Shown here one piece after another: positions 21,534 to 25,797 of a stretch of 64,000 bases of DNA; the first letter of the stretch is position 1, and each line of letters starts with the position of its first letter. The position numbers and the translations under genes are program-made. Under the pieces are notes generated by a model that had not been told where the DNA came from, did not search any database, and saw only the letters and a program-made list of their open reading frames with translations. This DNA comes from an uncultured Mucilaginibacter sp. (GTDB lineage: Bacteria > Bacteroidota > Bacteroidia > Sphingobacteriales > Sphingobacteriaceae): contig CAITEP010000004.1 in assembly GCA_903891475.1 (NCBI GenBank), positions 55,603 to 119,602 of the forward strand. The letters are read 5' to 3'.

Positions 21534-22931
21534 TTATTTTAAACTGCCAATCATATCCTCAGGGCGCACCCATTGGTCGAACTGCTCGTTTGTAAGCAGA
21601 CCTAATTCGGTAGCGGCTTCCCTTAATGATTTGTTTTCTTTCAGGGCTTTTTTTGCAATTTTAGCCGCGTTCTCGTAGCCAATATGCGGATTAAGCGCGG
21701 TTACCAGCATCAAGGAATTTTCAAGATGCTTTTTAATACCCGCGTAATTTGGCTCAATGCCGGCAGCGCAATGATCATTAAACGATACGCAAGCATCGCC
21801 AATTAACCTGGCCGACTGCAAAAAGTTGGCCGCCATCAATGGTTTAAACACATTAAGTTCGTAATGCCCGTTGGAGCCACCAATAGAAATGGCTACATCG
21901 TTCCCCATTACCTGCGCCGCAACCATGGTAACGGCCTCATTTTGGGTAGGGTTTACCTTGCCCGGCATAATGGAGGAACCCGGCTCGTTATCAGGAATAT
22001 GTATTTCACCAATACCTGAGCGTGGCCCGGAAGCCAACATACGGATATCATTCGCAATTTTCATGAGCGATACCGCTATTTGTTTCAACGCGCCATGGGT
22101 TTCAACAATGGCATCGTGTGCGGCTAAGGCCTCAAATTTATTCTCAGCGGTACGGAAAGGCAGATTAGTGAATTTGGCTATATAATCGGCCACCAATACG
22201 TCATAGCCTTTTGGGGTGTTGATGCCAGTACCAACCGCAGTACCGCCAAGGGCAAGTTCTGATAGATGGTCGAGTGTGTTGCGCAGAGCCTTTAAACCGT
22301 GGTTAAGTTGCGATACATAACCTGAAAACTCCTGACCTAACGTCAATGGGGTAGCATCCATCAAGTGGGTTCGGCCAATTTTTACCACGCTTTTAAACGC
22401 TTCCGATTTTGCTTGCAGCGTATCTCTCAGCTTTTCAATGCCCGGGATGGTTACATCCGTTACCATTTTGTAGGCGGCAATATGCATGGCGGTGGGGTAG
22501 GTATCGTTTGATGATTGCGATTTGTTAACATCATCATTTGGGTGTATAAATGTTTTGCCCTCGCCCAGTTTGTTGCCTTGCAACACATGCGCACGGTTGG
22601 CAATTACCTCGTTCACGTTCATGTTTGATTGCGTGCCCGAGCCAGTTTGCCATATCACCAGTGGAAACTCGGCAGCCAGGGCTCCGCTTAAAATCTCATC
22701 GCATACCTGTGCAATCTGGTCGCGTTTTTCGGCAGGGAGAACACCTAAATCGGTATTGGTATAGGCGGCAGCTTTTTTTAGGTAAGCAAAAGCCGCTATT
22801 ATTTCCTTTGGCATAGAGGCCTCTGGCCCAATTTTAAAGTTATTACGCGACCGTTCGGTTTGCGCGCCCCAGTATTTATCGGCAGGTACCTGTACCTCGC
22901 CCATGGTATCATGTTCTATCCTAAAACTCAT
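21534..22931 (-). CDS. fumC: Fumarate hydratase class II
   Basis: [34 protein letters not shown] signature. Confidence 0.96.
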
Positions 22932-23081: not shown

Positions 23082-23461
23082 CGGCGAAGGGTAGCCCGGC
23101 AAGCCGGGCAAAATTGTATTGTTGTTGCGTGTCTACAAAGGTTTTATCCCTACGGGATAGGAAGCGTAGTTTATATTTTTATTTTGAAAAAGGGGTTCTG
23201 TCCGTATAAAATAGTATGTGAGGATGAAATTTTTTGTCCAATATGATCTTATCTTTACAGGAAAGGACTTCTGCTTGATATATATGTTAGCGAATGAATA
23301 TAAAAAATTTATATCACAAATTGATTAAAAAGCTATAATGCCAATTATTGAGAAAATATTTGTTTTTGATGATATTATCCAGCATGATTGACCCAGCGGG
23401 TCAAAACCTTTGTAGAAAATAAAATAGGATTGGTTTTTGCCCCGATAGGGGCTACCCTTTA
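23082..23461. repeat. REP/BIME-like module 1
   Basis: GTAG(23091-23094)+hairpin CCCGGC-AA-GCCGGG at left; hairpin CCCC-GATA-GGGG + CTAC (23452-23455) inverted at right; internal 14-bp inverted pair TCTACAAAGGTTTT (23132-23145)/AAAACCTTTGTAGA (23403-23416). Confidence 0.85.
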
Positions 23462-23520
23462 GCATTTAAGCAAAACTCCCAAAATTTAATTTTTAAAGCC
23501 TTTCTTGTAGGCATAAAAAT

Positions 23521-23909
23521 CGGCGAAGGGTAGCCCGGCAAGCCGGGCAAAATTCCATTGTTGGTGTTTTTCTACAAATGTTTTATCCCTACGGGATAGG
23601 AAGCGTAGTTTATATTTTTATTTTGTCACAAGGATTTTTTCCTTACCGCCCAGGATGAGCGGATAATATTTTATATATATACAAGTGTTTTCCACATAAG
23701 GAATAGCGCAGATGGTTGGTATTGGTCTTGCTTTTAAGAATATGACCTCGAAAATCTATCTAACGAATTGATTATAAAGGTATAATTTATTGAGTTTAGC
23801 GAATATTTGTTTTTGTGAAAATATCCGACATGATTGACCCAGCGGGTCAAAACCTTTGTAGAAAATAAAACAGGATTGGTTTCGTGCCCCAATAGGGGCT
23901 ACCCTTTAG
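23521..23909. repeat. REP/BIME-like module 2 (divergent core)
   Basis: Same left and right ends as module 1 (GTAG 23530-23533; CTAC 23899-23902) but unrelated-looking central ~170 bp. Confidence 0.85.
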
Positions 23910-23967
23910 CATTTAAGCAAAACTCCCCAAATTTAATTTTTAAAGTCTTTCTTGCTGGCATAAAAAT

Positions 23968-24347
23968 CGGCGAAGGGTAGCCCGGCAAGCCGGGCAAAAT
24001 TGTATTGTTGTTGTGTGTCTACAAAGGTTTTATCCCTACGGGATAGGAAGCGTAGTTTATATTTTTATTTTGCAAAAGGAGTTCTGTCCTTATAAAATAG
24101 TATGTGAGGATGAAATTTTTTGTGCAATATGATCTTATTCTTACGGGAAAGGACTTCTGTTCGATATATATTATTGAAGGAATATAAAAAATCCATCTAA
24201 CAAATTGATTAAAAAGCTATAATGCCAATTATTAAGAAAATATTTGTTTTTGATTATATTATCCGACTTTATTGACCCAGCGGGTCAAAACCTTTGTAGA
24301 AAAAATAACAGAATTGGTTTTTTGCCCCTTTGGGGGCTACCCTTTAG
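23968..24347. repeat. REP/BIME-like module 3
   Basis: Same architecture (GTAG 23977-23980; CTAC 24337-24340); core closely matches module 1; right end abuts the transposase stop codon. Confidence 0.85.
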
Positions 24348-24811
24348 CCGTCAACCAAATCCTGAAAAATGTATTTATCTTCAAATTCAACCCCATAATC
24401 TTTTAATATCTCGAGATATTCTTCCTTGAATGATTTTTTTAAATGATGTTTTTGTTGGTTTAGGATATAATTTACCACCGCGTTTATTTGCGATTTGCTA
24501 TTGCTAAATGCACCATAGCCCTCTTGCCATTGAAATTTCCTTTTTGTAAAACCCTCCTTATTTATAAATTCTGAACTATCACCTTTAACCAAACGCATCA
24601 ATTCAGCTATTGATTGTTTAGGGTTTAAACCAATAAAAAGATGCATATGGTCCGGCATGTTGTTTATAGCCAATAACTTATGACCGTTTTTCTGTATTAT
24701 GCCAGTGATATACTTTTGAAGTCTATCCTGCCATAATTGCTCAATAACAGCCTGACGATACTTTACGGCGAATACAAAATGAACGTACAATTGGTTATAG
24801 GTATTTGACAT
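24344..24811 (-). mobile_element. IS200-like / REP-associated tyrosine transposase (Y1 HUH, TnpA_REP-type)
   Basis: 155 aa; YVHFVFAVKYR, NNMPDHMHLFIGL (HxH/HUH), GYGAFSNSKSQINAVVNYILNQQKHH (catalytic Tyr helix); adjacent GTAG-hairpin repeats. Confidence 0.85.
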
Positions 24812-24980
24812 AGGTTGAATCTATATTCAAAAATAATTAAAATTAATAAGGAAGAAAGCCAAATTTACCCAACTCCCAATTATCCCCTCAAATCTCCTGA
24901 AAATTTAAAGGATGAATCTTTATAACCAACCAGCCTAGTAAATTGATTATACGCGAATTTAAACGGTATTAAAAAGTAGA

Positions 24981-25043
24981 AAGTAGCTAGTATCAAGTCA
25001 CTAGTACCTTGTACCTAGGAGTTAGTAGCGGGTTACTAGTAAA
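24981..25043. repeat. Dispersed TAGCTAGTATCAAG-family repeat, left copy
   Basis: AAGTAGCTAGTATC (24981-24994) is the reverse complement of GATACTAGCTACTT at 25745-25758. Confidence 0.65.
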
Positions 25044-25081
25044 AACAACCATAACCTAGTTCTTGTTCACTGTATATGAGT

Positions 25082-25734: not shown

Positions 25735-25797
25735 CTTGATACTCGATACTAGCTACTTGATACTAAAAAAGCAAATCCGAAATCCGAAATCAATTCA
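25735..25797. repeat. Dispersed repeat, right copy, followed by AATCCGAAATCCGAAATC motif
   Basis: CTTGATACTCGATACTAGCTACTTGATACT; inverted relative to 24981 copy. Confidence 0.65.

Follow-up and report, generated by a model that had tools for sequence, protein, structure and literature searches.

Where REP sequences come from, and why the transposases that go with them are retained, is an open question that has been studied almost only in the RAYTs of gammaproteobacteria. In the soil bacterium Mucilaginibacter, a small single-stranded-DNA transposase gene (tnpA) adjoins an array of hairpin repeats, dispersed copies of which occur at other places in the genome. It lies in a stretch of 64,000 nucleotides, here called the window. 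We consider it probable that the gene and the repeats form a transposase and cognate hairpin-repeat system, REP/RAYT (REPIN)-like in its working and run by a non-RAYT Y1 transposase of subclass 1.2. Another class of transposase that has dispersed repeats of its own, across a large phylum, is an independent case; it offers candidate proteins and substrates, and among its loci are whole elements with the gene and one intermediate with part of it deleted.

The array occupies the space between a gene that we take to encode a class II fumarate hydratase-like protein and tnpA (Table 1), with a period of 439-447 bp. Much of what the first-pass annotation of this DNA had described is indeed there: a tandem array of three copies, at intervals of 439 and 447 bp, with an HUH/Y1 open reading frame adjoining. 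The GC hairpin and the inverted CCCC-type hairpin claimed for each copy are found three times each, as GTAGCCCGGCAAGCCGGGC hairpins at 23091, 23530 and 23977 and as inverted GTAGCCCC(N)GGGGC hairpins ending at 23455, 23902 and 24340. Two further hairpins per copy, ATCCC-TAC-GGGAT and GACCC-NNN-GGGTC, are likewise present, and compensatory changes affect both hairpins across copies. It is the proposed register, modules of about 380 bp parted by a spacer of about 58 bp, that has to be given up. The dispersed copies of the repeat are inverted pairs whose GTAG tags face each other across this “spacer”. This shifts the register: what was taken for a spacer forms the middle of the unit, and the “internal” hairpins mark its outer ends. 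It is the wrong register that made the modules look so long and gave them two extra internal hairpins.

Table 1. Features of the array and its neighbours, in window coordinates.
Feature	Position	Strand	Details
tnpA, HUH/Y1 transposase, subclass-1.2 type, 155 aa	24344..24811	-	D54-H55-M-H57; W95-Q96; Y115-ILNQ119-QKHH
R-type half-unit, 3' end of tnpA	24274..24344	-	GGGTAG-hairpin A (GCCCC/GGGGC)-spacer-CTACAAAGGTTTT-hairpin B (GACCC/GGGTC); 71.4 bits
L-type half-unit	23973..24044	+	GGGTAG-hairpin A (CCCGGC/GCCGGG)-spacer-CTACAAAGGTTTT-hairpin B (ATCCC/GGGAT); 82.7 bits
R-type half-unit	23836..23906	-	inverted pair 23836-24044 with 23973-24044; equals the genome-dispersed unit
L-type half-unit	23526..23597	+	81.2 bits
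R-type half-unit	23390..23459	-	70.3 bits; inverted pair 23390-23597 with 23526-23597
L-type half-unit, unpaired, far array end	23087..23158	+	81.6 bits
AT-rich stretch between half-units	23159..23389	.	recurs at 23598-23835 and 24045-24273; local tandem array only
Downstream neighbour, presumably class II fumarate hydratase-like gene	21534..22931	-	gene order kept in the relative's locus L046

Read in the corrected register, the array consists of six half-units of 70-72 nt, three L-type on the plus strand and three R-type on the minus strand, each built in the order GGGTAG-hairpin A-about 25 nt-CTACAAAGGTTT-hairpin B. Hairpin B is ATCCC/GGGAT in the L-type and GACCC/GGGTC in the R-type. The canonical REP tag, GGGTAG at the 5' foot of hairpin A, is present in all half-units of the window family; a second and more widely shared tag is CTAC 7-9 nt before the outer hairpin, which on the other strand is GTAG 7-9 nt after it. 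The stretch of about 230 nt between hairpins 2 and 3 is a component of the local array and is absent from the dispersed unit. The stop codon of tnpA lies inside the first bases of the adjoining R half-unit (TAAAGGGTAG), and the gene has no upstream (5') half-unit. No tnpB was seen beside it, and Rfam returned chance-level matches only (CC0196, 18 bits vs 35).

Outside the array the repeat takes a shorter form. The genome-wide search suggested by the first-pass annotation has a divided outcome, as the exact 19-mer of the first hairpin occurs only at the three array places in the 3.96-Mb genome and a looser motif search finds the hairpin family elsewhere. The genome copies, together with a covariance model (R1), define the dispersed unit as an inverted pair of 193-210 bp in which the GTAG tags face inwards and hairpin B is outermost. 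Outside the window lie 10 pairs and one unpaired half-unit (21 strong half-units), and all 12 pairs, the two array pairs included, face inwards and combine one L-type with one R-type half-unit; half-unit matches in the genome number 32. REPs in E. coli number hundreds. The copy number here is low by comparison, which counts against the model of a system. At the ten sites examined there is no overlap with open reading frames of 100 aa or more; all checked copies are intergenic, and 5 of the 8 sites with both neighbours resolved lie between convergent genes. Hairpins form in both half-unit types. Double changes keep the pairing of hairpin B in 11 of 23 copies at two base pairs and that of hairpin A in 8 of 23 copies at one, a covariation score reached by none of 500 shuffles.

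The transposase (Pfam Y1_Tnp, 107 bits) is not a RAYT by family score and tree. It scores 37.1 bits with the NCBIfam RAYT model (NF047646), below the cut-off of 80, and 88 bits with the IS200 model (NF033573), above the cut-off of 55; E. coli RayT reaches 179 bits with the RAYT model, the IS200 model not being listed for it. RAYTs (branch supports 99/98, E. coli RayT included), IS200s (subclass 1.1; 99/97, without the window protein) and the clade of the window protein, termed 1.2A (95/91), each fall on one side of a branch in the tree, and a well supported branch parts the window protein from the RAYTs. As to the branching order among the three, the tree and its one-clade tests are compatible with 1.2A lying nearer the RAYTs or nearer the other 1.2 groups plus IS200. 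Where the earlier reading had put the protein with the RAYTs, it stands on a separate branch.

TnpA-Y1 proteins of subclass 1.2 have about 150 aa with a C-terminal extension and the motifs HuH DH[IV]H, WQ and Y...Q..HH (Quentin 2018, PMC6006769). They occur in Cyanobacteria and Bacteroidetes as few diverged copies, 1.7 per genome at 36% identity against 4.8 at 99% for IS200, and the same study describes them as free of REPs and, as a rule, of IS200-type ends (PMC6006769). The motifs DHMH/DHIH, WQ and YILNQQKHH are present here, the window protein having DHMH, with about 30 residues after the Y motif, which is Y..NQ..HH and not the RAYT-like Y..NP. It matches subclass 1.2 in motifs, length, C-terminal extension, Bacteroidetes host and few diverged copies per genome, an assignment made from motifs and taxonomy. 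Unlike in the published account, hairpin repeats flank most of the loci considered here, which corrects the statement that subclass 1.2 has no associated repeats. Same-clade transposases also appear on contigs labelled as Methylococcaceae and Nitrotoga MAGs (L115, L118), either misbinned or transferred, and three genomes (G086, G083, G066) have Y1_Tnp matches in open frames some 1200 residues long, which may be fusions to large proteins.

Two more TnpAs, 47-50% identical to the window protein, are encoded in the same genome. One of the genes (C11, L039) is surrounded by about 30 short hairpins of the GTTCC/GGAAC kind with GTGGGTAG after them, and variants of these occur on other contigs. Next to the other gene (C37, L040) lies a tandem array, and the units of that array make up a further dispersed family (L026, L030, L031, L035, L036). 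Diverged TnpAs within one genome have unrelated repeats.

The association extends well beyond this genus. At 66 named Bacteroidota loci, searched with no prior motif, two 7-mers are the most enriched near the gene: CCTACGG, with 42 near and 2 far, and GTAGAAA, with 40 near and 7 far. Among the 256 tetranucleotides, GTAG is the commonest at a distance of 4-14 nt 3' of hairpins beside 1.2A genes; it occupies this position at 85 of 110 1.2A loci near the gene, against 4 of 104 far control flanks, and its distance to the hairpin is 7-9 nt in 172 of 195 occurrences. Sphingobacteriales, Flavobacteriales, Chitinophagales, Cytophagales and Bacteroidales all have the signature, which was found beside none of the IS200 (8), RAYT (9) and other 1.2 genes (26) compared. 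Of the 110 loci in the wider 1.2A clade, only 23 have GTAG/GTGG at 0-2 nt from the 5' foot of a hairpin. The published repeat search demanded GTAG at exactly that position (PMC6006769) and would therefore miss the arrangement of most 1.2A loci; our own search, limited to the open-licence literature, returned no description of 1.2A-associated repeats. Inverted 5' and 3' flanks are present at 51 of 110 1.2A loci vs 0 of 104 far flanks, at 18 of 26 other 1.2 loci, and at 6 of 9 RAYT and 0 of 8 IS200 loci; the far flanks of 1.2A and other 1.2 loci together give 0 of 128. The other 1.2 groups have different palindromes, for example ATAGCGATGGGTTTGAAACCCATCGCTAT. Two 1.2-like groups (L188, L217, L212, L190-L196) bear palindromes of their own on both sides of the gene, of the GGCTTTAGCC/GGCTGAAGCC type and the ATAGCGATGGGTTTGAAACCCATCGCTAT type, without GTAG.

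How the short pairs relate to the gene is suggested by loci of the window subclade, in most of which the 3' half-unit begins 2-20 nt after tnpA. About 12 distinct loci have half-units both within about 120 nt 5' and within 25 nt 3' of tnpA, in inverted orientation, and such complete tnpA-bearing elements measure about 640-650 bp. At L042 a full element adjoins a 388-bp copy in which tnpA is internally deleted between the same half-units; this copy reads as an intermediate towards the short form, and the series of 640, 388 and about 200 bp reads as the passage from an autonomous element to a REPIN. Recent multi-copy tnpA elements were sought in two genomes (G139, G004), where the copies are diverged. 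At a further locus (L045 2234-2954, the same as L147) five half-units in one orientation, about 162 bp apart, lie upstream of tnpA as tandem singles and not as pairs.

These complete elements, the internally deleted copy beside one of them and a protein over the IS200 cut-off are what speaks for an ordinary insertion sequence of the IS200/IS605 type, with a mobile tnpA, hairpins as its left and right ends and dispersed pairs as its MITEs. The likeness to IS608 and ISDra2 is real, extending to the Y1 transposase family, the catalytic residues and the hairpins with tetranucleotide tags. IS200 elements, however, are high-copy, near-identical and often accompanied by tnpB, and the tested IS200 loci are without inverted flanks, none of which applies here. 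The TnpAs of this genome include no near-identical copies, which fits the copy pattern of subclass 1.2 and not that of IS200 (PMC6006769), most tnpA loci are syntenic between species, and the window gene has no visible tnpB. The first-pass annotation had itself named this alternative, with the hairpins as simple LE and RE ends; it fails because the lineage is distinct and the ends are inverted pairs, as at no IS200 locus examined, and we regard the reading as unlikely.

In 11 of 15 close pairs the tnpA genes have flanking genes in common on one side or both, and the dN/dS of 0.03-0.06 indicates strong purifying selection; the data support the view that tnpA behaves like a domesticated single-locus gene. 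The window locus is syntenic with a locus of the nearest relative (L046 3001-3737 in G158), which has one module vs three and a transposase whose HUH motif reads PEHMH, not PDHMH, and which is frameshifted close to its end. The relative's genome contains 12 half-unit matches. Seven pair sites were queried there: the flanks are recognisable for six, none of the six has a family-1 pair, and one bears a different repeat family; at another site the relative has one pair and this genome two. A clean empty site was not found among the seven, and the orthologous intergenic regions differ by other indels too. From these differences it follows that the repeats turn over, and tnpA is mostly syntenic and conserved while they do so.

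Could the repeats instead be host intergenic elements, bidirectional terminators or mRNA-stabilising hairpins that control expression, among which a transposase has merely lodged? The intergenic position of all checked copies, the frequent convergence of the neighbouring genes and the hairpins formed by both half-unit types would suit such a role. Repeat presence, however, goes with the transposase: among 41 genomes of the genus, a phylogenetically non-independent sample, half-units are found in 24 of the 25 that have TnpA and in 3 of the 16 that do not (Fisher p = 4e-7). Counting against the model, those three genomes without a detected TnpA have six (G027), one (G008) and one (G023) half-units, and one genome with TnpA (G033) has 0 by the covariance model. 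Repeat identity, too, tracks the TnpA lineage and not the host genome (Mantel 0.54, with 0 of 499 permutations as high), a correlation in phylogenetically non-independent data to which shared descent of the flanks contributes. A half-unit that begins at the tnpA stop codon with fixed spacing at many loci, and a GTAG at a fixed 7-9 nt for which terminators have no place, argue in the same direction, and we judge a host role without the transposase to be improbable.

Least probable is a true RAYT system (Quentin class 2 or the Bertels groups) in Bacteroidota, to which GTAG at the hairpin foot, inverted pairs, a tandem array beside the gene and one locus per family would point, and which is contradicted by the family scores (RAYT 37 vs 80, IS200 88 vs 55), the separate clades (99/98 and 95/91) and the Y..NQ..HH motif.

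The likeness to the REPtrons, BIMEs and REPINs of gammaproteobacteria nevertheless goes further, to intergenic dispersal and a repeat of its own for each transposase. Of the domesticated or semi-active RAYT-BIME system first envisaged, a BIME-like, GTAG-tagged dispersed family beside a domesticated-like Y1 gene stands, and the RAYT does not. Differences lie in the Y1 class, in the two hairpins and second tag per half-unit, in a widespread signature that places GTAG 7-9 nt 3' of the outer hairpin and not at the 5' foot, in the complete tnpA-containing elements with inverted ends and in the low copy number. The RAYTs of subclass 2.6 (group 5) share the Bacteroidetes host and the repeats beside the gene; they differ in having a class 2 protein (NH.H, Y..NP) and atypical structures without GTAG (PMC6006769).

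For the preferred reading, a cognate system run by a subclass 1.2 transposase, the proposed mode of action is modelled on IS608/ISDra2 and E. coli RayT (PMC8266576), and on that footing we infer that TnpA mobilises the half-unit pairs. The element is the inverted pair itself, which in relatives encloses tnpA (about 640 bp, autonomous-type) and which in the dispersed units has lost tnpA and keeps 193-210 bp (REPIN/MITE-type). A TnpA dimer, as in IS608 and E. coli RayT, may bind folded single-stranded half-units on an exposed strand, the lagging-strand template; the HUH/Tyr115 centre would cut at positions set by the GTAG/CTAC tags and then rejoin the ends. Strand transfer would move or copy the short pairs in trans, the gene staying put. 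Because its 5' half-unit is missing, the window tnpA probably stays where it is and works in trans, and the locus is probably a fixed and partly dismantled source. Pairing of GTAG as guide with CTAC as cut site within a half-unit was considered as a rule for cutting and set aside; it fits the window clade, fails in clades without GTAG at the foot of hairpin A and is a guess only.

More tentatively, we speculate that a class neighbouring IS200 spawned REP-like systems across Bacteroidota separately from the RAYTs, that GTAG 7-9 nt 3' of the hairpin is the cleavage or guide motif, and that the 640-bp, 388-bp and about 200-bp forms catch the autonomous-to-REPIN step that is missing for RAYTs; this wider scenario may well be wrong.

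Repeats of other kinds, and mixtures of families, also occur. At about 1460-1500 of L016 a family-1 pair and a family-3 hairpin (CAATCCTTCGGATTG) lie directly against each other, and a family-3-like repeat of the relative (L284, orthologous to L022) occupies a place where this genome has a family-1 pair. At L011 1528-1850 several copies of a further palindromic repeat, GTCTGTGTCTTCACAGACATT / TTGTTTGTGAGGACACAAACAACGG, lie beside a single half-unit, with similar words in L030. In the window itself, CTAGTA/GATACT-like words flank the next gene (24976-25045 and 25740-25770), and similar words follow the same gene in L046.
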